From: Spiribacter halobius
GTDB taxonomy: Bacteria > Pseudomonadota > Gammaproteobacteria > Nitrococcales > Nitrococcaceae
Assembly (NCBI RefSeq): GCF_020883455.1
Contig: NZ_CP086615.1
Span: 1,116,001-1,180,000 of the forward strand
Length of the DNA: 64,000 nucleotides
Reading direction: 5' to 3'
Below the pieces are notes generated by a model that did no database searches, was not told the DNA's origin, and saw only the letters and a program-made list of their open reading frames with translations. The translations under genes were made by a program, and so were the position numbers. Of the stretch, positions 17,678 to 37,606 are shown one piece after another (position 1 is the stretch's first letter; every line of letters starts with the position of its first letter).

Positions 17678-17792
17678 GCCGTGGTTCTCCGTGGCGGGCC
17701 GGAACCGCGACGATACCGCGCCGCGCAAAGCGCCGGCCATCCGCATTAGCCCCGACCGTCCCGGCGGGAAGGGTTCGCGCTTCCCGCCTCCT

Positions 17793-17844
17793 GCCCACCA
17801 TCTCCACGCCCTCGCCTCGCGAATCGGTGACAAATGCGGGCTGG
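17793..17844. repeat. Family-2 palindromic repeat, copy b (degenerate left arm)
   Basis: Contains CGCGAATCGGTGACAAATGCGGGCT, 2-3 bases off the family core. It shares CTCCACGCCCTCG upstream with copy a. It lies between divergent genes, ending 33 bp before the CDF transporter start. Confidence 0.7.
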
Positions 17845-17876
17845 TAGACTCCCCATCCCCACCACGGAGGGCGTCC

Positions 17877-20266: not shown

Positions 20267-20420
20267 ACACCTGTTAAGCTAGGGGTGGAGCGAACAGTGA
20301 GGGCTGGCGCGTGTCGTGCCCGGCGCAGTAGTGACCACCCGCGCCCGGACGCAGACTGAACCCTGAATGGCTGCGGCAGTCCCCAATGCATACCCATGAA
20401 TGTGGTCGGGAGGGCCCGAT

Positions 20421-21983: not shown

Positions 21984-22907
21984 TCAGGCCAGGTCCGGCT
22001 GGCCGTAGTCGGTGCTGAAGCCGCCTTCCTCGTCGGGTTCGGCCGGCTGGCAGTAGGGGGCCATGGCCTCCAGCATGCGGTGCCGCCAGCGCTGGAGGGG
22101 CTCGATCTGGTTGAAGGTGTTGAGGTGGAAGTTGACCAGGCGCACGGTCGGGTCCTCGAACAGCGGCGCCAGCCGCCAGACCAGATCGTCCGGCGTGTAC
22201 TCCCCGCCCAGCAGGTGCCCGAACAGCCCGTTGCTGCGCCGGAGCACCTTCGCCGAATTGCCGATGCCGATGCGCATCGCCAGCCCCAGCAGCCTGCGCG
22301 GCTCCATGACCCCCGGCAGGCCCACGTGCACGGGTAGCCCGGGGCCGCGCCCGGCCATGTCCCGCAGCCACTCGATGATCTGGTCCGGGTCGAAGCAGAT
22401 CTGGGTGACCAGGTAGCTGGCGAAGGCCGCCTTGGCCTGCATGGCCTGCTCCAGGGTCGCGGCGTCGATCAGCGCATGCCCCTCCGGATAGGCCGGGATG
22501 CCCACCCGGGCCGGCCGTGGCTCCAGCTCTGCCATGGCCTGGAGCAGCTCGTGCCCCCCGGCGAACTCGCCCACCGGGCGCGGCGCATCGCCGCCGATCA
22601 CGAACACCTCGTCCATCCCGGCCGCCTGCAGGCGCTCCAGGATGGCCTGCAGGTGATGGCGGTCCTGCACCAGACGGGCGGCGAGATGGGGCACCACCAG
22701 GTGGCCCATGCCCGCCAGCAGCTCCGCGCTCTCCAGCGTCCGCTCGATGCCGTGCTTCGGCGAGCAGGTCACCGTGATGGCCGAGCCGCGGGGCAGCAGC
22801 CCCGCCTGCTCGAGCATCCCGCGGATGGGAATGAGCTCCCAGCGGGGCGCGGCGAGCGCCGCATACCCCGCGTCCAGACTCTGCGTCATGGGAGCGACTG
22901 CGCTCAT
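21984..22907 (-). CDS. MetF-like methylenetetrahydrofolate reductase family protein
   Basis: A 307-residue flavoprotein-type TIM barrel of the MetF family, which interconverts 5-methyl- and 5,10-methylene-tetrahydrofolate. Features include WELIPIRG with the family's N-terminal catalytic glutamate, VIGGD in the RGD-like position, QICFD (equivalent to QFFFD), and HVGLPGVM. It is divergent from housekeeping MetF and belongs to the group found next to folate-dependent demethylases. It lies 15 bp downstream of the GcvT-like gene on the same strand, clearly co-transcribed. Likely role (inference): oxidise the 5-methyl-THF made by the GcvT-like partner to methylene-THF. A housekeeping role in methionine synthesis is less likely from context. 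Confidence 0.78.
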   Translation of the reverse strand: MSAVAPMTQSLDAGYAALAAPRWELIPIRGMLEQAGLLPRGSAITVTCSPKHGIERTLESAELLAGMGHLVVPHLAARLVQDRHHLQAILERLQAAGMDEVFVIGGDAPRPVGEFAGGHELLQAMAELEPRPARVGIPAYPEGHALIDAATLEQAMQAKAAFASYLVTQICFDPDQIIEWLRDMAGRGPGLPVHVGLPGVMEPRRLLGLAMRIGIGNSAKVLRRSNGLFGHLLGGEYTPDDLVWRLAPLFEDPTVRLVNFHLNTFNQIEPLQRWRHRMLEAMAPYCQPAEPDEEGGFSTDYGQPDLA

Positions 22908-22922
22908 CGGTGCCTCCCTGCC

Positions 22923-24119
22923 TCAGCCCTTGGGGATGTCCTTGGAGGGGTCCATGAAGGGCTTTGGCACCACCACGGCGTGCTGGCGACCGGACTGGGT
23001 GTCGATCAGCAGCTCGGTGCCGAGCTCGGTGTAGTCGATCGGCACCATGGCGTAGCCGATGTTCTTGTCCAGTCGCGGCGAGCGGCAGGCGGAAGTGACC
23101 TGGCCGATGCGCTCCTCGCGGGTGCTGTGCACCGGGAAGACGTCAATCATGGAGCCGTCGGTGAAGCAGCCGACACTCGGGCCGTCGATCTCCACGCCCA
23201 CCAGCTTGCGCTTCGGCCCCTCCGCCTTGACCTTCTCCAGCGCGGCGCGGCCGATGAAGTCCTCGCTGTGGCGCAGGTCGACCATCCAGTCGTAGCCCAT
23301 GCCCACCTCGAAGGGGTTGGTGTCGTACCAGATGTCGCAGCCGAAGGCGAGAATGGCCCCTTCGATGCGGCGCATGTGGCAGGGTCCGATCACCTGCATG
23401 CCCTGCGGCCGGCCGGCCTCGAACACCCGGTTCCAAACGTGCTCGGCGTTGACCGTGGCGTCGCGGACGTAAATCTCGTAGCCGATCTCGCCGGTGTAGC
23501 CGGTGCGCGAGATGACCACCGGGATACCGTCGAGGGTGGTCTCCATCAGGTGGTAGTAGGGGATCTGCAGGACCTCCTCGCCGAAGAGGTCGATCATCAC
23601 CGGCTTCGCCTTCGGCCCCTGCACCTGCACCGGGGCGACGTCCACTTCCTGAATGGTGACGTCCATGCCGCTGTTGAGCGCAATGCCCTTGCACCAGAGC
23701 AGCACGTCGCTGTCGGCGAGGGAGAGCCAGAAGCAGTCCTCACGCAGGCGCAGCAGCACCGGGTCGTTGATGATGCCGCCGTCCTCGGCGGTCACGAACA
23801 CGTACTTGCACTGCCCGACCTTGCACTTGTTCATGTTGCGCGGCACGAGCTGCTGGGTGAACGCGAGCGCGTCCGGTCCGCTGATCTCGATCTGGCGCTC
23901 CACGCCCACGTCCCAGAGGGTGACGCCCTGCACCAGGGCCCAGTACTCGTCCACCGGATCGGTGTACACACGGGGATGGTAGTGATGGTTGTACACGCTG
24001 TACTTGCGCACCCCGTGGCGGCGTGAGCAGTAGAAGAAGGGCGACTTGCGGATCCGCGGGTAGAGCAGGATCTCCGGCGCCTCATGGGTGTGCTGCAAGC
24101 TCTCGATGACCTGGGACAT
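22923..24119 (-). CDS. GcvT/DmdA-like folate-dependent aminomethyl- or methyltransferase
   Basis: A 398-residue protein of the glycine-cleavage T fold. It carries TLWDVGVERQIEISGPDA near the N-terminus, IINDPVLL (the conserved ND motif), LADSDVLLW, a middle VQGPKAKPV segment, SRTGYTGEIGYEI, and a C-terminal barrel with SVGCF. The pattern resembles DMSP demethylase DmdA and relatives more than the canonical T-protein. The start at 24119 is chosen because GGAGGGG precedes it; an upstream ATG would add 11 residues. It forms an operon with the MetF-like gene and is divergent from the dimethylglycine/sarcosine operon. The substrate is not known: candidates are betaine, dimethylglycine, DMSP or another N- or S-methyl compound, with methyl transfer to THF (inference). 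Confidence 0.75.
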   Translation of the reverse strand: MSQVIESLQHTHEAPEILLYPRIRKSPFFYCSRRHGVRKYSVYNHHYHPRVYTDPVDEYWALVQGVTLWDVGVERQIEISGPDALAFTQQLVPRNMNKCKVGQCKYVFVTAEDGGIINDPVLLRLREDCFWLSLADSDVLLWCKGIALNSGMDVTIQEVDVAPVQVQGPKAKPVMIDLFGEEVLQIPYYHLMETTLDGIPVVISRTGYTGEIGYEIYVRDATVNAEHVWNRVFEAGRPQGMQVIGPCHMRRIEGAILAFGCDIWYDTNPFEVGMGYDWMVDLRHSEDFIGRAALEKVKAEGPKRKLVGVEIDGPSVGCFTDGSMIDVFPVHSTREERIGQVTSACRSPRLDKNIGYAMVPIDYTELGTELLIDTQSGRQHAVVVPKPFMDPSKDIPKG

Positions 24120-24364
24120 GGGCTTTCCCCTCCACGACGACTTGGCTACCAACCGCCCGCCCGGTGGCGGCGCGATGGCCAGACACTAGACCGGCCGCGG
24201 CACCGCCAGCCCCCCTGCAACGACAGTCACTTGCGCCTGCGCGCCAGCGCCCGCGCGCGTGTCGCTGTGGCCAAAGTCGCGGTCGCGAGGGAGCCAGTTG
24301 TGGGGGCGGGCTGCTCTACCGTTGGGTTCAACAGCAGACCGCGGCCCGCGGGGAGGAAGCCGGA

Positions 24365-25345
24365 ATGGAGAGCGCCCAGCTGCACCGCGACGCCGTCGTC
24401 ATCGATGGCCTGATCATCGCCCGCTTCGGCCGCGAGGTGTTCGAGGACATGCGTCGCGGCGGCCTCACCGCGGCCAACTGCACCTGCAGTGTCTGGGAGG
24501 GCATTCACGGCACACTGGAAAACCTGGCGTGGTGGGAGCAGGCCTTCCGCGAGCACGCGGACCTCATCCGCCCGGTGCACGGCACCGCGGACGTCCGTGC
24601 AGCGAAGGAGGAGGGCCGGACGGGCATCATCCTCGGTTGGCAGAACAGCTCCGGCATCGAGGACCGGCTCGACTTCCTGCCCCTGTTCCAGCGGCTCGGC
24701 GTGCGGGTGATCCAGATCACCTACAACACCCAGAACTACGCCGGCAGCGGCTGCTACGAGTCATCCGACTCCGGGCTTTCCGACTTCGGCCACGACCTGG
24801 TGGCGGAGATGAACCGCCTCGGCATCCTCTGCGACCTCTCCCACGTTGGCCCGCGGACCAGCCGCGACGTCATCGAGGCGTCACGGGCGCCGGTGGCCTA
24901 CACCCACTGCCTGCCGGCGGGGCTCAAGGCCCATCCGCGCAACAAGTCCGACGAGGAGCTGCGCTTCATCGCCGACCGCGGCGGCTTTGTCGGCGTCACC
25001 ATGTTCCCGCCCTTTCTCGCCAAGGGCTCCAACGCCGTAGTGGACGACTACGTCGAGGCCATCGAGTACGTCATGAACCATGCCGGCACCGCCCAGGTGG
25101 GCATCGGCACGGACTTCACCCAGGGGCACGACGAGGCCTTCTTCCACTGGATCACCCACGACAAGGGCATCGGCCGCAAGCTCACGGAGTTCGGCGAGAT
25201 CGTGAATCCCGAGGGCATGCGACGCATCGGCGATTTTCCGAATCTCACCGAGGCCATGCTGCGGCGCGGCTGGCCCGAGGAGCGGGTGCGCGGCGTGCTG
25301 GGCGAGAACTGGCTGCGCTTCCTCGGGGAGGTGTGGCAGGCATGA
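24365..25345 (+). CDS. M19 membrane-dipeptidase-like protein of the betaine catabolic cluster
   Basis: A 326-residue TIM-barrel protein of the renal-dipeptidase (M19) family and the first gene of the dgc/sox run. An orthologue is found next to dgcAB in Pseudomonas (PA5396-type). The usual N-terminal zinc motif HxD is absent: the segment reads IDGLIIA. The bridging Glu is also replaced (GWQNSSGIED). The histidines in CDLSHV and YTHCL remain, and GTDFTQG is preserved. So the binuclear zinc centre of true dipeptidases looks incomplete; it may use one metal or have a different reaction. The start ATG at 24365 follows GGAGGAAG. It overlaps the next start by 4 bp. Confidence 0.83.
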   Translation: MESAQLHRDAVVIDGLIIARFGREVFEDMRRGGLTAANCTCSVWEGIHGTLENLAWWEQAFREHADLIRPVHGTADVRAAKEEGRTGIILGWQNSSGIEDRLDFLPLFQRLGVRVIQITYNTQNYAGSGCYESSDSGLSDFGHDLVAEMNRLGILCDLSHVGPRTSRDVIEASRAPVAYTHCLPAGLKAHPRNKSDEELRFIADRGGFVGVTMFPPFLAKGSNAVVDDYVEAIEYVMNHAGTAQVGIGTDFTQGHDEAFFHWITHDKGIGRKLTEFGEIVNPEGMRRIGDFPNLTEAMLRRGWPEERVRGVLGENWLRFLGEVWQA

Positions 25346-25851
25346 GCGCGCCGGAGATCCCCATCGAGGTGGACGAGGCCACCGGGGCCTGGCTCTCCAA
25401 CGGCCTGCCCATGATCCTGCTGCCGCGCCATTTCATCGTGAACATCTGGCGCGAGCTCGCCGGCGGGCCGGGGGAGGAATCCCTGCGCGAGGCCGGTCGC
25501 CGCTCTGCCGCGGAGTGGTGCCGCAAGGAGGCGGAGCGCACCGGCGAGGACGGACCGACCGTGGTGCGTGCCTACTTCGCGAGCCTTTCCCGGCGCGGCT
25601 GGGGCCGCTTCGAGGTGCAGGCCCTGGATGGCCGTCACGGCGTCGCCCGGGTGCACGTCCACCATTCCGCCTTCGTCGCTGACGGCCGGGCCACGGCGCC
25701 GGCCTGCGGCTTCTTCGTCTCCTGGCTGGAGGGCGCCATGGCCTGGCTGGCGAGCGCCGGGGGGCATGGTTGGCTGCCGGAGGCCGTGGAGCGGCACTGC
25801 GCCGCGGCCGGCGGCGGATTCTGCGAGCTCGAGGCCCGACCGAGAGGGTAA
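25342..25851 (+). CDS. DUF5943-type conserved protein of the dgc cluster
   Basis: A 169-residue protein that in Pseudomonas lies between the M19-like gene and dgcA. The start ATG overlaps the M19-like stop (ATGA). The sequence has a short N-terminal part with PMILLPRHF, then a helical segment (AGRRSAAEWCRKEAERTGE), then a C-terminal part with cysteines in PACGFF, ERHCAAAGGGFCELEA. The CxxxxxxxC ending resembles 4-vinyl-reductase (V4R)-like domains, which bind small molecules or metals. Function is unknown. Tight coupling suggests it helps dimethylglycine demethylation or its regulation, but this is inference. Confidence 0.72.
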   Translation: MSAPEIPIEVDEATGAWLSNGLPMILLPRHFIVNIWRELAGGPGEESLREAGRRSAAEWCRKEAERTGEDGPTVVRAYFASLSRRGWGRFEVQALDGRHGVARVHVHHSAFVADGRATAPACGFFVSWLEGAMAWLASAGGHGWLPEAVERHCAAAGGGFCELEARPRG

Positions 25852-25856
25852 CTGCC

Positions 25857-27911
25857 ATGGCCCAGTACGAGCATCTCCTGAGCCCGTTCCGCCTCAAGGG
25901 CCTGACCCTGCGCAACCGTGCCGTGAGCACCGCGCACTCCGAGGTCTATGCCGAGGACGGCGTGCCCGGTGAGCGCTTCATCCGCTACCACGCCGAGAAG
26001 GCCCGGGGCGGGCTTGCGCTCACCATCATCGGCGGCTCCTCCTCGGTGGCCCGCACCAGCCCCACCACGTGGTGGAGCTCGCTGGATGTCGCCTCGGACC
26101 GCATCATCGAGCCGCTGGGCGAGCTCGCCGACGCCGTGCACGGCCACGGCGGCGCGGTCATGATCCAGCTCACCCACATGGGCCGGCGTAGCCGCTGGGA
26201 CGGCCAGAACTGGCCGCATCTCTACTCGGCGAGCGGGGTGCGCGAGCCGCTGCACCGCTCCGCCTGCAAGACCATGGAGGTGGAGGAGATCCGCCAGGTG
26301 GTGCGCGAGTATGCCGCCGCGGCGGCTCGGGTGAAGGCGGCGGGCCTGGACGGCATCGAGATCTCCGCAGCCCACCAGCACCTCATCGACCAGTTCTGGT
26401 CGCCGCGCACCAACCAGCGCACCGACGCCTACGGCGGCAGCCCGGAGAACCGGCTGCGCTTCGGCATGGAGGTGCTGGAGGCGGTGCGTGGCGCGGTAGG
26501 GGAGGACTTCATCGTCGGCCTGCGCCTCTGCGGCGACGAGTTCCATCCCGACGGTCTCGACCAGGAGGCGCTCATCGACATCGCCCGCCGCCACGCCGAC
26601 AGCGGGCTGATCGACTTTCTCAGCGTGATCGGCTCGGGCGCGGACACCCACGGCACCATCGTCAACTGCATCCCCAACATGAGCTATCCGCCGGCGCCGT
26701 TCCTCTACCTCGCCTCGGCGATCCGCTCCGAGGTGGATGTGCCGGTGATGCACGCCCAGAACATCAAGGACCCGATGTCAGCCGAACGGGCCCTGGCCGA
26801 GGGGCATGTGGACCTGGTGGGCATGACCCGCGCCCACATCGCCGACCCGCACTTCATCAACAAGCTGCGGGAAGGCGAGGAAGACCGCATCAAGCAGTGC
26901 GTCGGCGCCAACTACTGCATAGACCGCCAGTATTCCGGGCTCGACGTGCTCTGCGTGCAGAACGCCGCCACCTCCCGCGAGGCCACCATGCCGCACATCA
27001 TCGTCCGCGGCGAGCGCGAGCGCCGCGTGGTGGTGGCAGGGGGCGGCCCGGCAGGGCTCGAGGCCGCACGGGTCGCCGCCGAGCGCGGTCACCGGGTGAC
27101 GCTCTTCGAGCGCGAGGAGGACGTCGGCGGCCAGGTGGAGATCGGCGCCAAGGGCCCGGTGCGCGATCAGCTCGGCGGCATCATCCGCTGGTACCGCCTG
27201 GAGCTCGCCCGGCTGGGCGTGGACCTGCGGCTCGGCCGGGAAGCGGATGCCGGCACGGTGCTCGGCGAGGATCCGGAGGTGGTCATCATCGCCACCGGCG
27301 GGCGCCCGGACACCGGCCATCATCCCGGCTGGCGTGCCGCCGAGGGGCTCACCGTCTCCACCCACGACATCCTCACCGGTCGCGTCGCCGCCGGCGAGCG
27401 GGTGCTGGTGTTCGATGCCATCGGCGACTACCCCGGGGTGACCTGCGCCGACTTCCTCGCCGAGCGCGGCAGCCTGGTGGAGCTCGCCACTCCGGACATG
27501 GCCATCGGTGAGGATCTGGGCGGCACCACGCGCCCGGTCTATCACCGCCGCCTGCTGGAGCGGGACGTGGTGTTCACCCCCAATGTCTTCCTCAACGAGG
27601 TCTATGCCGAGGGCGACTCGCGCATCGCCGTGCTCGCCAACGAGTACACGGGCGCCGAGGAGGAGCGGGAGGTGGACCAGATCGTGGTGGAGCACGGCGT
27701 GAAGCCCGACGAGGCACTCTACTACGCGCTCAAGGACGGCAGCCGCAATGCCGGCCAGGTGGACATGGACGCCCTCTTCGACGCACGGCCGCAGCCGGAT
27801 TTCGCCGCCGACGGCACGGGCTATCTGCTCTATCGGCTGGGCGACTGCGTCTCGCCGCGCAACATCCACGGCGCCATCTACGACGCCCTGCGCCTCGTCA
27901 AGGACCTGTGA
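25857..27911 (+). CDS. dgcA: Dimethylglycine demethylase subunit DgcA
   Basis: A 684-residue flavoprotein of the trimethylamine dehydrogenase/old yellow enzyme family that, with DgcB, oxidatively demethylates dimethylglycine to sarcosine. The N-terminal FMN TIM barrel (about 1-340) has KGLTLRNRAVSTAHSE and GYLQ-equivalent HQHLIDQFWSPRTNQR. The Fe-S segment carries Cys348, Cys354 and Cys366, but position 351 is Ala (CVGANYC) where trimethylamine dehydrogenase has a fourth Cys. The C-terminal Rossmann part has VVVAGGGPAGLEAARVAAE. The product is inferred from gene order, which matches the Pseudomonas dgcAB cluster. It is 5 bp after the previous gene and overlaps dgcB by 4 bp. Confidence 0.88.
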   Translation: MAQYEHLLSPFRLKGLTLRNRAVSTAHSEVYAEDGVPGERFIRYHAEKARGGLALTIIGGSSSVARTSPTTWWSSLDVASDRIIEPLGELADAVHGHGGAVMIQLTHMGRRSRWDGQNWPHLYSASGVREPLHRSACKTMEVEEIRQVVREYAAAAARVKAAGLDGIEISAAHQHLIDQFWSPRTNQRTDAYGGSPENRLRFGMEVLEAVRGAVGEDFIVGLRLCGDEFHPDGLDQEALIDIARRHADSGLIDFLSVIGSGADTHGTIVNCIPNMSYPPAPFLYLASAIRSEVDVPVMHAQNIKDPMSAERALAEGHVDLVGMTRAHIADPHFINKLREGEEDRIKQCVGANYCIDRQYSGLDVLCVQNAATSREATMPHIIVRGERERRVVVAGGGPAGLEAARVAAERGHRVTLFEREEDVGGQVEIGAKGPVRDQLGGIIRWYRLELARLGVDLRLGREADAGTVLGEDPEVVIIATGGRPDTGHHPGWRAAEGLTVSTHDILTGRVAAGERVLVFDAIGDYPGVTCADFLAERGSLVELATPDMAIGEDLGGTTRPVYHRRLLERDVVFTPNVFLNEVYAEGDSRIAVLANEYTGAEEEREVDQIVVEHGVKPDEALYYALKDGSRNAGQVDMDALFDARPQPDFAADGTGYLLYRLGDCVSPRNIHGAIYDALRLVKDL

Positions 27912-29842
27912 GCGGCGGGATGAACGCCTGGCTGGGTCTGCTGCCGCTGCTGCTCGGTCTGGGCGCCCTTGCGTGGCGGCTGCGCGGCCGCCTCGCCCGC
28001 TGGCGCGCCGGACGCCCGGCGGCGGCGAACCTGCTGCGCGGGCTGCTGCAGGTGCCGCGGCGGTATCTGGTGGACGTCCACCACGCGGTAAGCCGAAATG
28101 CCTACCGGGCCCGGCACCGGACGGAGTCCGGCGGCTACACCGCCGTGCTCCACGTCTGTGCCGCGGGCGGGGTGGTGGCGAGCGCCGTGCTGGCGCTGCT
28201 GCTGCACCCCCTGGGCGGCCCCCCGTGGCTTGCCGGGCTGGCGGTGGCGGCCGGGCTGCTCGCCGCCAGTGGTGCCGCCCTCGATGCGGGCCGGCGCTGG
28301 CGCCGGGGACGCTCGCCGCGCCTCTCCGATGACCGCTTCGATCAGCTGCCGCTGGCCCTCGGCGCCTTCGGTCTCGGCCATGCCGGGCTCGCGCTGCCCG
28401 CCGTCGGCCTCGCAGCGGGGCCGGTGCTGGTGGCCGCCGCCTTCGCCCTCGCCGCGGCGGGCAGCGTTCTGCTCATCGGCGGCATGGCCGAAGGGCCGAT
28501 GCGTCATGCCCTGGCGGGCGTGCTCTATCTCGCCGCCCACCCGCGCCCGCAGCGCTTCGGTGGCGGCCGCGACACGGCCGCCGAGCCACTGCACCTGGAG
28601 GGCGAGACGCTGGGGGCCGACCGCGCGCAGGACTTCCCCTGGAACCGCCTGCTCGGCTTCGACGCCTGCGTGGAGTGCGGCCGCTGCGAGGTGGTCTGCC
28701 CGGCCTTCGAGGCGGGGCTGCCGCTCAATCCGAAAAAGCTCATACAGGATCTTGCCCGCGCCGGCACCGCCGCCGGCGATGCCGGCTACACCGGCCGCGG
28801 CCACCCCGACCGGCCGCCCGCCGGCAGCCACGAGCGGCTCGTCGGCGTGGACGGGATGATCGACCCGGACACCCTCTGGGCCTGCACCACCTGCCGGGCC
28901 TGCGTGGATGAGTGCCCGATGATGATCGAGCACGTCGACGCGGTGCTCGACCTGCGCCGCTTCCAGACCCTGGAGGCCGGGGCCGAGCCGCAGGCGGCGT
29001 CGAACCTGCTGGATCAGCTCCGCGCCACCGACACCATCGGCGGCCACGACCCGGCGCGGCGGCTGGACTGGGCGGTGGACCTCGCCCTCCCGCGGCTGCC
29101 GGAGCGGGGCGAGACGGATATCCTGCTCTGGCTCGGCGAGTCCGCCTACGAGCTGCGCAACCAGCGCACCCTGCGCGCTCTGGTGCGTCTGCTGCGCGCG
29201 GCCGGCGTGGATTTCGCCGTGCTCGGCGAGGCCGAGCTCGACTGCGGTGACATCGCCCGGCGTCTCGGCGACGAGGCCACCTTCCAGGACCTCGCCCGGC
29301 GCAACATCGCCACGCTCTCGCAGCACCGCTTCCGCACCATCGTTACCGCCGACCCCCATGCCCTGCACACCCTCGGCAGCGAGTATCCGGCCTTCGGCGG
29401 TCACTATGACGTCCAGCATCACACGACCTTCCTCGCGGGGCTGCTGGACGCGGGCCGCCTGCCGGTGCCCGCCGGCGGGTCGCGGCAGGCGGTCACCTAC
29501 CACGACCCCTGCTACCTCGGCCGCTATCAGGGCGAGTTCGACGCCCCGCGTCGGCTGCTCGCGCATCTGGGCCTGGAGGTGACCGAGATGGCCAAGTCCC
29601 GCGAGCGCTCCAGCTGCTGCGGCTCCGGCGGCGGGCTGGCGGTGACCGATATCCCTGGACGCCGTCGCATTGCCGACGTGCGCATGGAGCACGCCCGGGA
29701 GACCACCGCCGACACCGTGGCGGTGGCCTGCCCCCATTGCGCGGTGATGCTGGAGGGCGTGGTGCAGCCGCGGCCGGGGGTTACCGACGTGGCCGAGCTG
29801 CTTGCCGAGGCCCTCGATCAGGCCGGGGAGCGGGCGGCATGA
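27908..29842 (+). CDS. dgcB: Dimethylglycine demethylase subunit DgcB (Fe-S membrane protein)
   Basis: A 644-residue membrane-anchored iron-sulfur protein. The N-terminal third has several hydrophobic segments (about residues 5-20, 80-100, 105-120, 160-200). Two ferredoxin-type clusters follow: CVECGRCEVVCP and CTTCRACVDECP. The C-terminal part has paired CCG-type motifs (DPCYLGRY with SSCCGSGG, then CPHCAVML) as in heterodisulfide reductase-like proteins. It is thought to pass electrons from DgcA toward the quinone pool or the Etf proteins. The GTG start at 27908 overlaps the dgcA stop. Gene order and features match known dgcB. Confidence 0.88.
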   Translation: MSGGMNAWLGLLPLLLGLGALAWRLRGRLARWRAGRPAAANLLRGLLQVPRRYLVDVHHAVSRNAYRARHRTESGGYTAVLHVCAAGGVVASAVLALLLHPLGGPPWLAGLAVAAGLLAASGAALDAGRRWRRGRSPRLSDDRFDQLPLALGAFGLGHAGLALPAVGLAAGPVLVAAAFALAAAGSVLLIGGMAEGPMRHALAGVLYLAAHPRPQRFGGGRDTAAEPLHLEGETLGADRAQDFPWNRLLGFDACVECGRCEVVCPAFEAGLPLNPKKLIQDLARAGTAAGDAGYTGRGHPDRPPAGSHERLVGVDGMIDPDTLWACTTCRACVDECPMMIEHVDAVLDLRRFQTLEAGAEPQAASNLLDQLRATDTIGGHDPARRLDWAVDLALPRLPERGETDILLWLGESAYELRNQRTLRALVRLLRAAGVDFAVLGEAELDCGDIARRLGDEATFQDLARRNIATLSQHRFRTIVTADPHALHTLGSEYPAFGGHYDVQHHTTFLAGLLDAGRLPVPAGGSRQAVTYHDPCYLGRYQGEFDAPRRLLAHLGLEVTEMAKSRERSSCCGSGGGLAVTDIPGRRRIADVRMEHARETTADTVAVACPHCAVMLEGVVQPRPGVTDVAELLAEALDQAGERAA

Positions 29843-31011
29843 GCGCGCAGCCCCATGGCCGCCGGCGCCGCGACCCGCGGGCGGAGCGCGAGCAGCGCCG
29901 CCGTGGCGCGACCCGGGCGGCGGCGCAGGCCGCGGCCGAGCCGGCCCGGGGAGAGGCGTCGGCCGGAGCCCGGCGGCGGGTGGATCCGCGCGCCGAGCGC
30001 GGCGGCCGGCGGCGCCTCGAGGCGCGCGGTCGGGCCGACGCCCGCGGTGCCGCGGTGCCGGAGACCGGTCCGGGCGGACCGGTGGCTATCCGGGATCCCG
30101 CCTACTGGATCCTGGTGGTGCCGGACCAGATCGACGGCAGCCCGGACGCACGCGACCGGGAGCTGCTGGAGGCGGCCCGTCGGCTCGCCGACGCCGAGGG
30201 CGGCGCCGTGGCCGTGGTCGATCTTGGGCGAGGGGCCGGCTGGCCAGCCCTCGGCGCCGACCGGGTGGTGCGCCCCGAGCGCGCACCTCAGGACCCGCTG
30301 CCCCTGCTGGAGGCCCTCGCCGAGCAGCTCGCGCCGCGGCATGTGCTGTTCACCGAGCGGCCGGCCGCCGGTGCCGAGCTCGGGCGCCGCTACGCGGCGA
30401 GCCGGGGCGGGGCGTCGGCGCCTCATGTGCGGCGGCTCGACGACAGCTCGGTGACGGCAGCGGCGGGGCAGGGGCGCGAGGCCGTGCATTCGCCCATCCC
30501 GCCGGTGCTGCTGCTCGATGCAGGCACGGCGGAACCGCCTGCCGGCCGCCTGCATGAGGCCCGCGAGCTGCCGGCGCCGGAGGCCGGGGCGGCTGCGCCG
30601 GTGGTGGAGGATCTGGGCCCGGTGCCGGTGAACCCGGATGAGATCCCCCTCGCCGAGGCGGACTTCATCGTCAGCGCCGGCCGCGGGGTGCAGGACTTCG
30701 CTGCCTTCCAGCGGCTCGCCGAGCTGCTGGGGGCTGCCGCCGGCGCCTCGCGGCCGGTCTGCGACGCCGGCCTGATGCCCCGCGCCCGGCAGGTGGGGGC
30801 ATCGGGCACGCTGGTCTCGGCGCGCTGCTACATCGCCCTGGGCATCTCCGGCGCGCCGCAGCATCTGCAGGGCATCGCCGACTGCGAGCACGTGGTGGCG
30901 GTCAACCTGGACCCGCACTCGGAGATCATGAAGCGGGCCGATCTCGCCGTGGTGGGGGATGTGGAGGCGATCATGGCGGCGCTGTTGCGGCGCCTGGAGG
31001 CGCCGACATGA
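29839..31011 (+). CDS. etfA: Electron transfer flavoprotein alpha subunit of the dgc cluster
   Basis: A 390-residue EtfA. The FAD-binding C-terminal half has SAGRGV, VCDAGLMPR, VGASGTLVSARCYIALGISGAPQHLQGI, and KRADLAVVGD, all classic EtfA. The N-terminus carries about 70 extra residues, strongly basic with two copies of a RDPRAER-like motif, as in EtfA proteins associated with dgcAB. It takes electrons from dimethylglycine/sarcosine oxidation with EtfB. The start ATG overlaps the dgcB stop by 4 bp; an upstream in-frame alternative would fall within dgcB. Confidence 0.88.
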   Translation: MSAQPHGRRRRDPRAEREQRRRGATRAAAQAAAEPARGEASAGARRRVDPRAERGGRRRLEARGRADARGAAVPETGPGGPVAIRDPAYWILVVPDQIDGSPDARDRELLEAARRLADAEGGAVAVVDLGRGAGWPALGADRVVRPERAPQDPLPLLEALAEQLAPRHVLFTERPAAGAELGRRYAASRGGASAPHVRRLDDSSVTAAAGQGREAVHSPIPPVLLLDAGTAEPPAGRLHEARELPAPEAGAAAPVVEDLGPVPVNPDEIPLAEADFIVSAGRGVQDFAAFQRLAELLGAAAGASRPVCDAGLMPRARQVGASGTLVSARCYIALGISGAPQHLQGIADCEHVVAVNLDPHSEIMKRADLAVVGDVEAIMAALLRRLEAPT

Positions 31012-31790
31012 CCGCGCCGGTGATTGTGCTCCTCGCCGCCGGGCGCCATCCGGTGAGCGGGCGCCCGCGCCGCGCCCCCACCGATGCCCGCGCCCTGGAG
31101 CTGGCGCTGTCGCTGCCCGGCGCCCCGCCGGTGCTCGCCGTGCATGCGGGCGACCCGCTCGAGCCGGCGCTGCGCGAATACCTGGGCATGGGGCTCGTGG
31201 AGCTCACGGTCCTGGACTGCGACCCCGCGGGGGATTGCCTGCCGCCCCTGCAGGCCTGGCTGCGGGAGCAGGCGCCGGGCCTGGTGCTCACCGGCACTGC
31301 CAGCGAGCAGGGCCTCGCCAGTGGTGAGCTGCCCTACCGCCTCGCCGCGGGTCTGCAGGCCGCGGTAGTGGGCGGGGTGACCGGCCTGGAGCCCGACGGC
31401 GGGCGCTGGCGGATCACCCAGGCCCGCGCCGGCGGCCGGCGGCAGCGCCTGGCGGCGGCGGAGCCGCTGGTGGCCGCCGTGGATCCGGGTGCACCGGCGC
31501 CCCGCCCGGTGGCCTTTGCCCGGGCCCGGCGCGGGCGCATCGTTACCGAGGCACCGCCGGTGCCGGCGGCCGAGCCGCCCGCGGTGACCCTGCAGCCCGC
31601 CCGCCGGGGCGCTCGCCGCCAGCGGGTGCTGCGCGGGGTGAGCGCTGCCGAGCGGCTGCGGGCGATCAGCGGTGGTGGGGGCAGCGGCGGTCGCGTGGTG
31701 CAGGCTCGGGACCCGGACGCCGCCGCCGCGGAGATTCTCGATCAGCTGCAGCGCTGGGGCGTGGCCCTGCCGCAAAGGGGAGCCGAATAA
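31008..31790 (+). CDS. etfB: Electron transfer flavoprotein beta subunit of the dgc cluster
   Basis: A 260-residue EtfB-like protein. It has the family's AMP/FAD-interaction segments in degenerate form ([32 protein letters not shown]) and [13 protein letters not shown], equivalent to the TIAS/GPG-containing regions. It is more divergent than housekeeping EtfB, as is normal for the dgc-associated subunit. The start overlaps etfA by 4 bp, and the stop overlaps the soxB start by 1 bp. With EtfA it would carry electrons from DgcAB to the respiratory quinone pool via a separate Etf-quinone oxidoreductase that is not in this window. Confidence 0.83.
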
Positions 31791-33040
31791 TGCAGCGCTA
31801 TTCCCTGCCCAATCTCGCTCTTCACGCCCTGCGCGGCCATCGCGACTGGCAGCCCGCCTGGCGGGAGGCCGAGCCCCGGCGGCGCTATCGGGTACTGGTC
31901 ATCGGTGGCGGGGGCCACGGCCTGGCCACCGCCTACTACCTGGCGAAGGAGCACGGCATTACCGATGTCGCCGTGCTGGAGAAGGGCTGGATTGGCGGTG
32001 GCAACACCGGACGCAACACCACCATCGTCCGTTCGAACTACCTCTGGGACGCCTCCGCCGCGCTCTACGAGAAGTCCCTGCAGCTCTGGGAGGGGCTGTC
32101 CCGGGATCTGAACTTCAATGTCATGTTCAGCCAGCGCGGGGTGCTCAACCTCGGCCACACCCTGCAGGACATGCGCGACATCCGCCGCCGGGTGAACGCC
32201 AACCGGCTGAACGGCATCGACGGCGAGGTGCTGGACACCGACGGCGTGAAACGCCTGGTGCCCTTCATCAACACCTCCCCGGAGAGCCGCTTTCCGGTGC
32301 TGGGCGCCTCCTGGCAGCCGCGAGCCGGGATCGCCCGCCATGATGCCGTGGCCTGGGGTTTCGCCCGGGCCGCGGATGCCCTCGGGGTCGACATCGTCGA
32401 GAACTGCGAGGTCACGGGCATCCGCCGGGAGAACGGTCGGGTCACGGGCGTCGAGACGAGCCGCGGGCCCATCGATGCCGACACGGTGGGCGTGGTGGTG
32501 GCCGGGCACGCCGGGGTGCTCGCGGAGATGGCCGGCTTCCGGCTGCCCATCGAGAGCCATCCCCTGCAGGCGCTGGTCTCGGAGCCGCTGAAGCCCATCC
32601 TGGATACGGTGGTCATGTCCAACGCGGTGCACGTCTACGTCAGCCAGTCGGACAAGGGCGAGCTCGTCATCGGCGCCGGCATCGACGGCTACAACGGCTA
32701 CGGCCAGCGCGGCAGCTTCCAGACCCTGGAGCATTTCCTCTCGGCGCTGATCGAGCTCTACCCGATATTCAGCCGCCTGCGCCTGCTCCGGCACTGGGGC
32801 GGCATCGTCGACACCTGCCCGGACGCAAGCCCCATCCTGAGCAGCACGCCGGTGCGGGGGCTGTTCTTCAACGTCGGCTGGGGCACCGGCGGCTTCAAGG
32901 CCACGCCCGGATCCGGCTGGGTGTTCGCCCACACCCTGGCCCACGGCGAGCCCCATCCCATCAACGCACCGTTCTCCCTGGAGCGCTTCCATACCGGCGC
33001 CCTGGTGGATGAGCACGGCGCTGCCGCGGTGGCGCACTGA
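31790..33040 (+). CDS. soxB: Sarcosine oxidase beta subunit
   Basis: The catalytic flavoprotein of heterotetrameric sarcosine oxidase, which converts sarcosine to glycine and a C1 unit. The 416-residue protein has the FAD motif [16 protein letters not shown] near residue 38, [14 protein letters not shown], the RHDAVAW segment (the known covalent-FMN histidine region), and the C-terminal [14 protein letters not shown]. The start overlaps etfB by 1 bp, so it belongs to the same transcript. In most genomes soxD follows directly; here about 710 bp of palindromic repeats separate them. All key motifs are intact, so the gene should be functional. Confidence 0.92.
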
Positions 33041-33064: not shown

Positions 33065-33097
33065 CCGTAGGTCGTGCACGGAAACGCCGTGTGCGAC
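33065..33097 (+). repeat. Family-4 hairpin, copy 1
   Basis: CCGTAGGTCGTGCACGG with the pairing arm CCGTGTGCGAC and a short loop. Repeated at 33317, and in inverted orientation at 33499 and 33693. Confidence 0.75.
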
Positions 33098-33146
33098 GTT
33101 CCGGCTGTGTTCCGCGACGCAGCCGGCGCATTGCGCTGGGCGAGCG

Positions 33147-33254
33147 GGCGGTACGTGGGCCGGTCTCCCGGGACACGCTGTGAATACATCCCTGTACGCT
33201 CCTAGGCGAGATCCCTCTCGCCTAGGGTCCCGGGAGACAGGCCCACGCACCGCC
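33147..33254. repeat. Family-3 two-stem palindrome, copy 4
   Basis: Outer 28-bp arms 33147-33174 and 33227-33254 with two mismatches. Conserved loop with ACGCTGTGAATACATCC, inner stem AGGCGAG/CTCGCCT. It lies inside the soxB-soxD gap. Confidence 0.9.
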
Positions 33255-33316
33255 TCTCCCGGCCTTGTGCCCGCCGCCGCGTCGATATGCCCCGGCCCGA
33301 AACCTTCAGCCGGCTC

Positions 33317-33525: not shown

Positions 33526-33560
33526 CTGCGCAGGATTCGGTGCGGGACCCGGATCTGAGC

Positions 33561-33614
33561 CGGGGATTCGCCTGCCGGCGTGTCGGCGAGCGCGGTGCGC
33601 TTGCCGACCTACGG
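33561..33614 (-). repeat. Family-5 element (relative of the soxG palindrome)
   Basis: Contains GCCGGCGTGTCGGCGAGCGC and TTGCCGACCTACGG, nearly identical to one arm plus inner part of the palindrome at 37601-37708. Confidence 0.75.
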
Positions 33615-33692
33615 CACCCCTACGGGCGGTGCGGCAGGGAATGCCCACCCGAAACCTTACACCTTGAACCCGAAACTCGGACGTTCGGGAAT

Positions 33693-33725
33693 GTCGCACA
33701 CGGCTGCGCCGTGCACGACCTACGG
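33693..33725 (-). repeat. Family-4 hairpin, copy 4 (inverted)
   Basis: GTCGCACACGGCTGCGCC and GTGCACGACCTACGG. Ends 29 bp before the soxD start; it may affect the soxD leader. Confidence 0.75.
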
Positions 33726-33754
33726 GAATCGACCCATCCGAGGAGGCACTGCCG

Positions 33755-34042
33755 ATGCTGCTGATCGAATGCCCCTGGTGCGGGCCGCGGGACGAGAGCG
33801 AGTTCAGCTATGGCGGCGAGGCGCATATCGCGCGGCCTGTCGAGCCGGATGCGCTCTCCGACGAGCAGTGGGCGGAGTATCTGTTCGCGCGGAAGAATCC
33901 CAAGGGCTGGCACCGGGAACAGTGGCTGCACGCCCACGGCTGCCGGCGCTGGTTCAATGTCGAGCGCCACACCGTCAGCTACGAGATCCGCCGGGTGTAC
34001 CGCATGGGTCAGATTCCGGCGACGACGGAGGAGGGCGCATGA
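33755..34042 (+). CDS. soxD: Sarcosine oxidase delta subunit
   Basis: A 95-residue small subunit of heterotetrameric sarcosine oxidase. It binds zinc: CPWCG at residues 6-10, then a His and Cys in HAHGCRRWFNVERHT. The length and the C-terminal YEIRRVYRMG match the family. It starts at ATG 33755 with GAGGAGG upstream, giving a good ribosome site despite the preceding repeat island. Its stop overlaps the soxA start (ATGA). A promoter in the repeat island is possible, but I see no clear one. Confidence 0.93.
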   Translation: MLLIECPWCGPRDESEFSYGGEAHIARPVEPDALSDEQWAEYLFARKNPKGWHREQWLHAHGCRRWFNVERHTVSYEIRRVYRMGQIPATTEEGA

Positions 34043-36993
34043 CCGCGAGGCTGCCCCAGGGCGGGCGTATCGACCGCGAGCGGCCGCTCGCGTTCATGTT
34101 CAACGGTGAGCGCTATCAGGGCTATGCCGGGGACACGCTTGCCTCGGCGCTGCTCGCCAACGACGTGCACCTGGTTTCCCGCAGCATCAAGCTGCATCGC
34201 CCGCGGGGCATCGTCGGCCGGGGGCCGGAGGAGCCGAACGCCCTGCTGCAGGTGGGCCGCGGTGCCGCTGCGCTACCCAACACGCGCGCCACCCAGCTGC
34301 CGCTGCGTGACGGCCTCGAGGCGCGCTCGGTCAACGGCCGCCCGAGCGTGAACACCGACGCCATGGCCGTGTTCGACCTCGCCGGCAAGCTGATGCCGGC
34401 AGGCTTCTACTACAAGACCTTCATGGCCCCGAGGGGCTGGTGGGAGCGCTACGAGCGCGTGATCCGGCCCGCCGCCGGCACCGGCATGGTACCGGACAGC
34501 CCCGACCCGGACCGCTACGAGAAGGTCGAGACCCACTGCGACGTGCTCGTGGCGGGCGCCGGTGCGGCGGGGCTCGCCGCCGCGCTCGCGGCCGCCCGCG
34601 CGGGGGCCCGTGTGATCATCGCCGACGAGCAGGCCGAGGCGGGGGGCGGCCTGCTGGCGAGCCGCGCGCGCATCGACGGTCAGAGCGCGGCGGACTGGGC
34701 CGGGGCGATGCGCGGCGCGCTGGAGCAGCTGCCCGAGGTGCGGGTGCTGCCCGCCACCACGGTGTTCGGCCACTACGATCACCGCTTCATCGGCCTGGTG
34801 GAGCGGGTGCAGGAGCAGCGCCCGGAGGCTCCGGTGCGGGAGCGCTTCTGGCGGGTGCGCACCCGCGAGCTGGTGATCGCCGCCGGGGCCATTGAGCGAC
34901 CCATTGCCTTCCCCGACAACGACCGCCCCGGGATCATGACCGCCTCGGCGGTGCGGGAGTATCTGGAGCGCTATGCCGTGCGCTGTGGGCGCCGCGCGGT
35001 GGTGTTCACCAATAACGACTCCGCCTACGCCACCGCCCACGCGCTGCTGGCCGCGGACGCAGCGGTGACCGTGGTGGACGCGCGCCGCACGCCCGGCGCG
35101 GCGGCAGAGCAGGCAGAGGCGGCCGGCGCCCGGGTCCTGCCCGGGAGCGTGATCAGCGCCACCGCCGGCAGGCGGCGGGTGCGGCGGGTCTCGGTGCGCG
35201 CTGCCGAAGGCGGCACGCAGGACATCGACTGCGATCTCGTCGCCGTCTCCGGCGGCTGGAATCCGTCGGTGCACCTGCACTCCCACGCCCGGGGCGAGCT
35301 CCGCTGGGTGCCCGGGCTGGCGAGCTTCGTGCCCGCGGAGGACCTGCCCCACAGCCGTGCCGTCGGCGCCTGCCGAGGCACCTTCGACCTCGCCGCCGCC
35401 ATCGCCGAGGGCTTCGCCGCCGGTGCCGAGGCGGCGCGGGCCGCAGGGCGGGGTGACGGCGACGCGCCCGCCGCGCCCACGGTCACCGACGCCGAGCCCG
35501 GGCCCGAGGGCCTGGAGGTGCTCTGGCGCGTGCCGGGCAAGGGCCCGGCCTTCGTCGATCTGCAGAACGACGTCAAGGCCAGCGACCTCGAGCTCGCCCT
35601 GCGCGAGGGCTACCGCTCGATAGAGCACGTGAAGCGCTACAGCGTGCTCGGTTTCGGGACCGATCAGGGCAAGCTCGGGAATCTGGTGGGCATGGGCATC
35701 GTCGCCGAGGCCCTGGGCAAGGCGCCGGAGGCCGTCGGGACCACCACCTACCGCCCGGCCTGGACGCCGGTGACCTTCGGCGCCCTGGTGGGGCCGGAAA
35801 CCGGCGAGCTGTTCCAGCCCATCCGGCGCACGCCCATGCACGAATGGCACGAGGCCGAGGGCGCCGTATTCGAGGACGTCGGCCAGTGGAAGCGCGCCCG
35901 CTACTACCCCCGCGAGGGCGAGGACATGGACGCGGCCGTCGCCCGGGAGTGCCTCGCGACCCACCAGGGGGTCGGCGTGCTCGACTACTCGACCCTCGGC
36001 AAGATCGACATCCAGGGTCCGGACGCGGTGACCCTGCTCGAGCGCGTCTACACCAACAACTGGCGGAAGCTCGCCGTGGGCCGCTGCCGCTATGGCCTCA
36101 TGCTCGACGAGAACGGGATGGTGCTGGACGACGGTGTCACCGCCCGGCTTGGCGAGCAGCACTACCTGATGTACACCAGCACCGGCGGCGCCGCCCGGGT
36201 GCTGGCCTGGCTGGAGCGCTGGCTGCAGACCGAATGGCCGGAGCTGGAGGTCTATCTCACCTCTGTCACCGACGCCTGGGCCACCGTGTCCCTGGCCGGG
36301 CCGCACAGCCGGGACCTGCTGTGGGACCTCGGCACGGACATTCCCCTGGAGGCGGAAGCGTTCCCCTTCATGTCCGTGCGCACGGGCAGCGTGGCCGGCA
36401 TGCCGGCGCGGGTGCAGCGGGTGAGCTTCAGCGGCGAGCTGACCTTCGAGGTCAGCGTGCCGGCGAACTTCGGACTGGATCTGTGGACCCGGGTGATGGA
36501 GGCGGGCGAGCGCTACGGCGCCACGCCCTACGGCACCGAGACCATGCACGTGCTGCGGGCCGAGAAGGGCTTCATCATCGTCGGCCAGGACACGGACGGC
36601 TCGATCAGCCCCATCGACCTCGGCATGGACGGGCTGGTGAGCCGGAAGAAGGACTGCCTCGGCAAGCGATCACTGCAGCGTCCCGAGCTGCAGCGGGCGG
36701 ACCGCCCGCAGTGGGTGGGGCTCACGCCGGAGGACCCCGAACGGGTGATCCCCGAGGGCGCCCAGCTGGTGGCGGACCCGGACGCGACGCCGCCGGTGCC
36801 CATGCACGGCTGGGTTACCTCCAGCTACTATGCCGCCCGCATCGGGCGCAGCATCGCGCTCGGCTTCGTCAACGGCGGCCGCGAGCGCTACGGCGAGCGG
36901 CTCTTCGCCTGGGACCTGGACGCCGGCGTGATCCCGCTGACGGTTACCCGGCCCCTGTTCTTCGATGCGGAAGGGGAGCGCCAGAATGTCTGA
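34039..36993 (+). CDS. soxA: Sarcosine oxidase alpha subunit
   Basis: The large subunit (984 residues) of heterotetrameric sarcosine oxidase; it binds NAD and folate and captures the C1 unit as methylene-THF. The N-terminal part is 2Fe-2S-ferredoxin-like/NAD-binding with GYAGDTLASALLAN, then the Rossmann motif VAGAGAAGLAAALAAARAG. The C-terminal third is a GcvT-like domain (ending near residue 950) that carries the folate site, with LDYSTLGKIDIQGPDAVTLL and GYTG-equivalent segments. The start overlaps the soxD stop by 4 bp. The family length is normal. It works with SoxB, SoxD and SoxG in the cytoplasm. Confidence 0.95.
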   Translation: MTARLPQGGRIDRERPLAFMFNGERYQGYAGDTLASALLANDVHLVSRSIKLHRPRGIVGRGPEEPNALLQVGRGAAALPNTRATQLPLRDGLEARSVNGRPSVNTDAMAVFDLAGKLMPAGFYYKTFMAPRGWWERYERVIRPAAGTGMVPDSPDPDRYEKVETHCDVLVAGAGAAGLAAALAAARAGARVIIADEQAEAGGGLLASRARIDGQSAADWAGAMRGALEQLPEVRVLPATTVFGHYDHRFIGLVERVQEQRPEAPVRERFWRVRTRELVIAAGAIERPIAFPDNDRPGIMTASAVREYLERYAVRCGRRAVVFTNNDSAYATAHALLAADAAVTVVDARRTPGAAAEQAEAAGARVLPGSVISATAGRRRVRRVSVRAAEGGTQDIDCDLVAVSGGWNPSVHLHSHARGELRWVPGLASFVPAEDLPHSRAVGACRGTFDLAAAIAEGFAAGAEAARAAGRGDGDAPAAPTVTDAEPGPEGLEVLWRVPGKGPAFVDLQNDVKASDLELALREGYRSIEHVKRYSVLGFGTDQGKLGNLVGMGIVAEALGKAPEAVGTTTYRPAWTPVTFGALVGPETGELFQPIRRTPMHEWHEAEGAVFEDVGQWKRARYYPREGEDMDAAVARECLATHQGVGVLDYSTLGKIDIQGPDAVTLLERVYTNNWRKLAVGRCRYGLMLDENGMVLDDGVTARLGEQHYLMYTSTGGAARVLAWLERWLQTEWPELEVYLTSVTDAWATVSLAGPHSRDLLWDLGTDIPLEAEAFPFMSVRTGSVAGMPARVQRVSFSGELTFEVSVPANFGLDLWTRVMEAGERYGATPYGTETMHVLRAEKGFIIVGQDTDGSISPIDLGMDGLVSRKKDCLGKRSLQRPELQRADRPQWVGLTPEDPERVIPEGAQLVADPDATPPVPMHGWVTSSYYAARIGRSIALGFVNGGRERYGERLFAWDLDAGVIPLTVTRPLFFDAEGERQNV

Positions 36994-37606
36994 GACGCCC
37001 ACTCGACACGGGGCCCTTGACGGGCTGCCGGCCCTGCAGCATCCCGGAGTGACGGTGGCGCCGGTGCTACCCGGTGGCGTGCTCAACCTCCGCGGCCGCA
37101 TCGGTGAGGCCGGCTTTCGCGACGGCGTGGCGGAGGCCCTCGGTGCCGCGCCTCCCGCAGCCCCCAATACCGTCGCCCGGGGCCGGGGCGTAACACTGCT
37201 CTGGCTCGGCCCGGACGAGTGGCTGGCGGTGGCCGACCCCGAGCTGACGCCCTCGGTGGAGGAACTGATGGCCCGGCTGCAGGGCATGCACGCCGCGGTC
37301 ACCGACCTCGGCGATGGCCAGACCTGGATCGAGCTCGCAGGCCACCAGGCCCGCGATCTCCTCGCTCGCGGCTGCCCGCTGGACCTCCACCCGCAGTCGT
37401 TCCCCGCCGGGCGCTGCGCCCAGACCCGCCTGGCCCAGGCCAGCGTGCTCCTCTACGCCCTCGACTCCGGGCGCCTGTGGCTGCAGGTCCGCCGCAGCAT
37501 GGCCCGTTACCTCTGGAGCTGGCTTGCCGCGAGCCTCGACCGCCTCGAGGTGGTCGAGGCAGACGCCGAACCCGCCGCCGCGCTCCAGGCCCGCTCCGCG
37601 CCGTAG
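36986..37606 (+). CDS. soxG: Sarcosine oxidase gamma subunit
   Basis: The 206-residue gamma subunit of sarcosine oxidase, related to the GcvT fold. Visible family segments are LNLRGRIGEAGFR, LLWLGPDEWLAV, VTDLGDGQTWIELAG, and FPAGRCAQTRLAQASVLLY. It starts at ATG 36986 and overlaps the soxA stop by 8 bp. The TAG stop (37604-37606) lies inside the left arm of a 40-bp perfect palindrome, so the last codons and the stop are provided by the repeat. It is the last gene of the betaine run; the palindrome may end the transcript. Confidence 0.9.
   Translation: MSETPTRHGALDGLPALQHPGVTVAPVLPGGVLNLRGRIGEAGFRDGVAEALGAAPPAAPNTVARGRGVTLLWLGPDEWLAVADPELTPSVEELMARLQGMHAAVTDLGDGQTWIELAGHQARDLLARGCPLDLHPQSFPAGRCAQTRLAQASVLLYALDSGRLWLQVRRSMARYLWSWLAASLDRLEVVEADAEPAAALQARSAP

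Follow-up and report, generated by a model that had tools for sequence, protein, structure and literature searches.

What might a GcvT-like gene and a MetF-like gene be doing together beside a set of genes for dimethylglycine and sarcosine degradation? The question is raised by a stretch of the Spiribacter halobius genome, 64,000 nucleotides in length and referred to here as the window (contig NZ_CP086615.1, positions 1,116,001 to 1,180,000), in which the two genes occupy positions 21984–24119 and are divergent from a dgcAB-etfAB-soxBDAG operon. A first-pass annotation had proposed that the pair could act as a tetrahydrofolate (THF)-dependent demethylase of glycine betaine, an important osmolyte and nutrient of saline environments, or of another methylated osmolyte. 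The open reading frames, their domains and the operon arrangement are all confirmed, and the hypothesis is strengthened, with the choice of substrate partly supported.

The pair probably carries out the first step of glycine betaine catabolism and links it to folate. In this scheme the GcvT/DmdA-like protein would transfer a methyl group directly from the quaternary ammonium of glycine betaine to THF, generating dimethylglycine and 5-methyl-THF, and the MetF-like protein would oxidise the 5-methyl-THF to 5,10-methylene-THF. The neighbouring DgcAB-EtfAB and SoxBDAG would then convert dimethylglycine to glycine, with the one-carbon (C1) units burned via an unlinked operon for formate-THF ligase (fhs), methenyl-THF cyclohydrolase and formate dehydrogenase that sits beside a GbdR-like regulator. 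We infer glycine betaine, rather than dimethylsulfoniopropionate (DMSP), as the substrate from gene neighbourhoods that recur across phyla and from a GbdR-type operator.

A DmdA-like protein with a divergent MetF-like partner

The two reading frames are on the same strand and are separated by 15 bp. The GcvT-like protein exceeds the Pfam cut-offs for both GCV_T (143.8 bits) and GCV_T_C (60.7 bits). Its best NCBIfam match is to DmdA (NF009133), at 327.7 bits against a cut-off of 410, and it likewise falls below the cut-offs of the trimethylamine N-oxide demethylase (238.4 bits), SoxA (139.2 bits) and true GcvT profiles (NF001567, 187.2 bits, cut-off 300; TIGR00528, 154.8 bits, cut-off 235.85). 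An AlphaFold model built from 33 sequences (pLDDT 77.2, pTM 0.79) finds its best match among PDB folds in DmdA (3tfh; TM 0.82/0.88, E 8.1e-38). On its domains and its modelled fold, the protein is a member of the GcvT-fold superfamily of THF-dependent C1 transferases.

Within this superfamily its position is given by a maximum-likelihood tree of 52 domains, in which DmdA is represented by two rows and for which a long-branch warning concerns chiefly the outgroup rows. The window protein and 21 relatives form a single group of 22 rows, clade A (support 85/94), drawn from Halomonadaceae, Arhodomonas, two further genomes of its own order, Actinomycetota and one Chloroflexota metagenome-assembled genome. 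A group termed clade C, together with the two DmdA rows, is sister to clade A, at a join (91/82) that falls short of what counts as firm. Clade B, seven rows that include Haloarcula (41–45% blastp identity), lies outside A, C and DmdA, and all four are held together at 100/99 against the Tdm, GcvT, SoxA and DMGO domains. The annotation's view that this is not a true GcvT is thus upheld, as the protein falls on the DmdA side of the tree, away from the organism's own GcvT and from SoxA, DMGO and Tdm. That it belongs to the glycine cleavage system as an ordinary paralogue of GcvT can hardly be credited at all, despite its GCV_T domain, since the genome has a separate GcvT (L002) that passes both curated cut-offs (476.2 bits, and 421.8 bits for TIGR00528), neither of which the window protein reaches, and the separate clade contradicts this idea.

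The comparison with DmdA is closer. The two share a single-chain GcvT fold, membership of the same larger clade and the N118-D119-P120 motif, which is common to every compared row of clades A, B, C and DmdA. A function as a DMSP demethylase would be in keeping with DmdA as both the nearest characterised family and the nearest fold, but deserves very little credence. The protein is only 35% identical to a plasmid-encoded DmdA that reaches 600.3 bits on the profile, and in the tree it adjoins DmdA and clade C and is not within the DmdA group; membership of the family is rejected on this position and on the sub-threshold score. H48 and H248 are histidine in 22 of 22 clade A and 7 of 7 clade B rows, whereas both DmdA rows have leucine at these positions and clade C has residues other than histidine; the SoxA rows have histidine at 248. 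The neighbours differ too, in that the acyl-CoA ligase and enoyl-CoA hydratase genes found beside DmdA (L088) and clade C are not seen in the clade A neighbourhoods examined. Finally, a clade A gene is carried by Rubrobacter and Brachybacterium, which are mainly non-marine genera.

Clade C itself is a candidate DMSP-type demethylase clade. Its genes (L086:11968-13110, L121:3030-4259 and L122:10095-11243) adjoin acyl-CoA ligase and enoyl-CoA hydratase genes, by resemblance only at L121, with FolD/PurU also beside the L121 gene and a MetF-like gene beside that of L122; the L086 protein scores 371.4 bits, below the DmdA cut-off of 410.

The only curated family whose cut-off is passed by the MetF-like protein is Pfam MTHFR (PF02219), at 32.4 bits against 24; its score against canonical MetF (TIGR00676) is 42.8 bits, far below the cut-off of 293.7. 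By sequence, it is a divergent member of the methylene-THF reductase superfamily. Its closest solved chain is 7xg9 (E 1.3e-27), presumably a protein of Sphingobium SYK-6. The idea that it is a second, purely catabolic MetF in this organism is not supported, as no canonical MetF above the cut-off was found in the genome, although MetH is present. The same lack of a canonical MetF was seen in six of six other tested members of its taxonomic family (G080, G101, G081, G082, G091 and G092), and all 13 Halomonadaceae tested have a canonical MetF plus a weak second match.

Neighbourhoods and the shared promoter

Of 79 loci that were fetched, 74 contain a usable clade A gene, 35 of them gammaproteobacterial and 39 from other groups; the figures that follow are plain counts with no formal null. 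A DMGO-type gene lies within 6.5 kb in 35/35 gammaproteobacterial and 30/39 other loci, with a fragment in three more (L055, L058 and L065), and for two of the encoded proteins (L036 and L038) the nearest solved chain is dimethylglycine oxidase, 1pj5. Within the same distance fhs is found in 33/35 and 16/39 loci respectively, a GbdR-like gene in 33/35 and 1/39 (L049, at 25% identity only) and an IclR-type regulator in none of the 35 and 21 of the 39. The one gammaproteobacterial GbdR-like protein profiled (L014) scores 439.8 bits, with the cut-off at 480. Sox or MSOX genes within 8 kb (8/39) and BCCT transporter genes within 9 kb (4/39) are confined to the other loci; the BCCT protein of L075 scores 573.7 bits as a glycine betaine BCCT (cut-off 650). 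DgcAB within 8 kb was counted in five of the 39, two of which (L051 and L061) are weak OYE-family matches. A MetF-like gene is present in 27/35 gammaproteobacterial and 29/39 other loci; in 54 of the 74 it immediately follows the orthologue, and in two more it lies elsewhere in the locus.

The arrangement in Halomonas reads fhs<, gbdR>, DMGO<, gcvTL>, metF>, and that in Nesterenkonia DMGO>, IclR<, gcvTL>, metF>, fhs>, while the loci of Rubrobacter have MSOX as well, some of them also BCCT. The window locus carries dgcAB-soxBDAG in place of DMGO. Co-occurrence with dgcA is seen at the window locus and a few others, most relatives adjoining DMGO instead. The partnership of one gene with two non-homologous dimethylglycine enzymes, DMGO and DgcAB, offers the strongest hint of dimethylglycine as its reaction product. 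The Rubrobacter betaine-type clusters also have a second GcvT-like gene upstream of the MSOX gene (L064:12774-14069 and L069:9761-11044); that of L064 scores 290.5 bits against a GcvT cut-off of 300.

These neighbourhoods also bear on the idea that the protein is a helper of dimethylglycine and sarcosine oxidation, placing onto THF, as 5,10-methylene-THF, the C1 unit that DgcAB or SoxBDAG sets free, in the manner of the GcvT domains of DMGO and SoxA. The gene does adjoin dgcAB and sox, and no GcvT domain is reported for DgcA or DgcB. However, most relatives adjoin DMGO, which already has such a domain, the directly downstream MetF fits methyl-THF and not methylene-THF, and the tree places the sequence on the side of DmdA, which transfers methyl groups, so a helper role appears very doubtful.

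For clade B a link to betaine is only partly supported, as DMGO-like and MetF-like genes accompany three of the seven rows (L118, L079 and L087). None of the genes searched for was found at L119, L120, L123 and L080, with a BCCT gene about 7 kb from that of L123. One of the clade B loci, on a Haloarcula marismortui plasmid (L087:11905-24336), combines the GcvT-like gene with a methylenetetrahydrofolate reductase gene, two DMGO-like genes and a Rieske oxygenase gene.

The pair and the divergent operon share an intergenic region of 245 bp (24120–24364, given inferred starts). Alignment of the upstream regions of 15 gammaproteobacterial orthologues revealed a conserved TGTCGC-N5-CCAAAG block, of which the window has a single exact copy (24260–24276; 0.32 copies with up to one mismatch expected). 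The block opens a direct repeat, TGTCGC-N15-GGTCGC, whose only exact match in the window is in this promoter; as 0.15 matches are expected and 14 of 100 shuffles contained at least one, it is the location in the 245-bp promoter that counts and not mere presence. When 34 sites from other genomes, the window excluded, were made into a matrix, its best window score (19.9) fell at this site, compared with peaks of 3.7–11.0 for eight column-shuffled matrices. The second-best match (10.2) lies 7 bp away on the opposite strand and is weak on its own, because one of the shuffled matrices reached 11.0.

Within 350 bp upstream of the orthologue, TGTCGC-N5-CCAAAG is exact in 21/35 gammaproteobacterial loci and present with up to two mismatches in 34/35. 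TGTCGY-N15-NGNCGY occurs in all 35, from which the pattern was derived, and in 0/39 other loci, as expected if another regulator acts there. The site is also upstream of the orthologue in G067 (L116) and of one clade B gene (L120). In the parts of PMC5806209 that were available, the CdhR site is given as GGTCGC-N15-GGTCGC and described as very similar to that of GbdR, a regulator that responds to glycine betaine. The window repeat is one letter away from this GGTCGC in its first half and agrees in its 15-bp spacer, and a GbdR-like regulator, whose identity we infer, probably acts on the shared promoter.

Alternative routes and coexistence with GbcA

The genome is a single contig of 4.17 Mb, and the annotation's remark that gbcAB is missing from the window extends to all of it, as neither a PF00848 protein nor a GbcA candidate (NF058607 profile) was found. 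A GbcAB route elsewhere in the genome had been named beforehand as a finding that would speak against the pair, and none emerged with these profiles. The whole genome likewise yielded no protein of the MTTB family or MtgB. It encodes three PF02574 proteins, of which L083 is MetH (above its cut-off) and L084 and L085 score 70.5 and 51 bits, far below the BHMT cut-off of 338, so BHMT is rejected as the alternative here; a solved-structure search with L085 gave no match. A genome search with the GcvT-like protein returned only itself, GcvT and SoxA, and hence no DMGO was seen, although no search was aimed at DMGO.

What the genome does have is in keeping with the proposed scheme. One BCCT transporter passes the general BCCT cut-off and has the glycine betaine BCCT family as best NCBIfam match (507.7 bits, cut-off 650). 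A GbdR-like regulator gene (437.9 bits, cut-off 480) is divergent from fhs (794.6 bits, above cut-off). After fhs come a gene that matches methenyl-THF cyclohydrolase weakly (36.6 bits, cut-off 275) and is above the Pfam FTCD_C cut-off (57.9), one for a NuoE/NuoF-like protein and one for the alpha subunit of formate dehydrogenase (771.9 bits, above cut-off). This gbdR-fhs pair is the counterpart of that in the Halomonas cluster, here away from the GcvT-like and MetF-like genes. In the stretch around the BCCT gene, the best score of the operator matrix is 11.3, about 8.6 kb from that gene.

Several observations weigh against the assignment as the first step of betaine catabolism. GbcA was surveyed in 49 genomes, representing 50 of the 79 loci, many being drafts whose completeness is not stated. 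It is above the cut-off in 23 of the 28 Halomonadaceae genomes that carry a clade A gene, compared with 0/1 for Arhodomonas and 0/20 for the others (two of which, L079 and L080, were taken for their clade B gene). Among the Halomonadaceae, Halomonas icarae (L013/G009) gave no GbcA-profile match at all. Three of those 20 (G038, G039 and G043) have GbcA matches of 376–394 bits, which are below the cut-off of 670 and yet not negligible. No MetF was found in 18 of the 74 clade A loci, a few of them on short contigs, and four of the 39 non-gammaproteobacterial loci (L049, L051, L061 and L072) have neither DMGO nor Sox genes in the surrounding 10 kb or so. The organism's own gbdR-fhs intergenic region has no strong matrix site, and the site is weak or missing at the G066 orthologue (L114, three mismatches) and at the other clade B rows examined. 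Moreover, despite their low BHMT scores, L084 and L085 may have betaine:homocysteine activity.

Coexistence with GbcA rules out the gene as a simple replacement of GbcAB, and on this point the earlier idea of a THF-dependent demethylase needs qualification, even though clade, neighbourhoods and operator favour betaine. Where both genes are in the same genome, the two routes can evidently coexist, and in the Halomonadaceae the clade A gene would be either redundant or directed at another substrate. In its own order, orthologues of at least 73% identity occur in four of 54 genomes, S. halobius included, and GbcA in one of the 54; that genome (G066) has both: its gbcA shares a region with dgcB-etfAB-sox, and the pair, with its GbdR-like gene, lies about 31 kb away. 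An oxygen-dependent division of labour or a second substrate would explain the coexistence.

A second substrate could be another onium osmolyte, such as proline betaine or another N-methylated amino acid, demethylated with THF so as to feed the same oxidases. That enzymes of the DMGO and MSOX families can accept several N-methyl amino acids is a point in favour of this explanation, as is the presence of GbcA in so many Halomonadaceae. It is nonetheless rather unlikely, since S. halobius, devoid of GbcA, still keeps dgcAB, soxBDAG and a BCCT transporter, and since the operator is of the type used by the betaine-responsive GbdR (PMC5806209, as seen in part).

Known systems, significance and the rest of the locus

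Betaine demethylation as proposed here would resemble that by the Rieske monooxygenase GbcAB in substrate and product. LigM and DesA, THF-dependent aryl O-demethylases of Sphingobium, share with the window protein the GcvT fold and THF as acceptor, and 7xg9 is a further link through the MetF-like partner. They are far more distant from it than DmdA, however, with scores of 55.8 (LigM, cut-off 580) and 74.7 bits (DesA, cut-off 800). The available portions of PMC12478193 name three routes of betaine demethylation, namely the monooxygenase GbcAB, the cobalamin-dependent MtgBCD and the homocysteine methyltransferase BHMT; its main text mentions neither GcvT nor DmdA by name. Unlike the proposed route, GbcAB releases formaldehyde (PMC12478193, same portions) and its GbcA component is missing from this genome. 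MtgBCD of aerobic marine bacteria has the same overall outcome as the route proposed here, a betaine methyl group passed to THF with a MetF partner (MetF2), but is made up of unrelated proteins (PF06253 and a corrinoid protein).

Precedents come from Pelagibacter, where, according to the accessible text of PMC3160333 (2011), a role in glycine betaine metabolism was postulated for the aminomethyltransferase SAR11_1303, beside opuA, and the second methyl group of DMSP was the guessed target of SAR11_1265, DmdA-like and beside metF. Both are likened to the window pair by this description, as aminomethyltransferase genes beside metF or betaine-transport genes, and not by sequence. DmdA has been reviewed as an adapted GcvT protein (PMC5395565, in part), and Bmt activity is described with betaine and DMSP (PMC12366255, in part). 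No paper giving clade A a role in betaine metabolism was found in the open-licence literature, a search that left preprints outside.

GcvT-fold betaine:THF methyl transfer would add a fourth to the betaine demethylation routes of aerobes, distributed over Gammaproteobacteria, Actinomycetota, Chloroflexota and, through clade B, haloarchaea. With the origin of DmdA included, this broader suggestion is evenly balanced between right and wrong. DmdA itself could be descended from a betaine demethylase, because the betaine-neighboured clades A and B flank the DMSP-type clades on both sides, and the route would then offer a plausible ancestor for a key enzyme of marine sulfur cycling. The route would be independent of oxygen, vitamin B12 and homocysteine, and in it the methyl group would stay at the level of 5-methyl-THF, with ATP possibly recoverable via formate-THF ligase. 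It would also account for the entry into betaine use of GbcA-less halophiles and Actinomycetota that have dimethylglycine genes.

The features of the locus are collected in Table 1. The plus-strand operon is longer than first described, extending from an M19 dipeptidase gene to soxG. The names dgcA, dgcB, etfA and etfB rest on domains and on a gene order that we take to be that of Pseudomonas, as no NCBIfam model is above its cut-off; the best such match of dgcA is to another OYE family. The DUF5943 protein has no NCBIfam match.

Table 1. Features of the gene pair, the shared promoter and the divergent operon (window positions)
Feature	Position	Strand	Remarks
GcvT/DmdA-family protein (P0001), 398 aa	22923..24119	-	candidate glycine betaine:THF methyltransferase
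MetF-like protein (P0002), 307 aa	21984..22907	-	candidate 5-methyl-THF oxidising partner
Second, weaker copy of GbdR-type site (putative)	24217..24249	-	second-best matrix match in window, 10.2
GbdR-type operator (putative)	24257..24289	+	direct repeat TGTCGC-N15-GGTCGC at 24260-24286
M19 membrane-dipeptidase family, first operon gene	24365..25345	+	PF01244 286.7 bits; start inferred, frame opens 24164
DUF5943 protein	25345..25851	+	PF19367 85.1 bits in overlapping reading frame 24259-25851; start inferred
dgcA, FMN/OYE-type dehydrogenase	25770..27911	+	Oxidored_FMN 206 bits; best NCBIfam match below cut-off; true start inferred ~25857
dgcB, Fe-S protein	27908..29842	+	Fe-S reductase families, all below cut-off; named from gene order
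etfA	29737..31011	+	NF051845 267.8 bits, cut-off 600; true start inferred ~29830
etfB	31008..31790	+	NF051844 189.1 bits, cut-off 350
soxB	31790..33040	+	TIGR01373 703.9 bits, above cut-off
soxD	33755..34042	+	PF04267 135.1 bits
soxA	33580..36993	+	TIGR01372 1350.5 bits, above cut-off; true start inferred ~34030
soxG	36965..37606	+	TIGR01375 106.4 bits, cut-off 143.95

In the 0.7-kb gap between soxB and soxD, at 33065–33724, there are imperfect repeats, both direct and inverted, the longest of about 40 nt. On the other side, a class-III aminotransferase gene of the 4-aminobutyrate type (20400–21791; 513.6 bits, above the cut-off of 506.65) is convergent with the MetF-like gene, and further away an alpha/beta hydrolase-OsmC fusion is encoded on the minus strand at 16448–18079, adjoining an M14 carboxypeptidase-like gene at 14736–16451.

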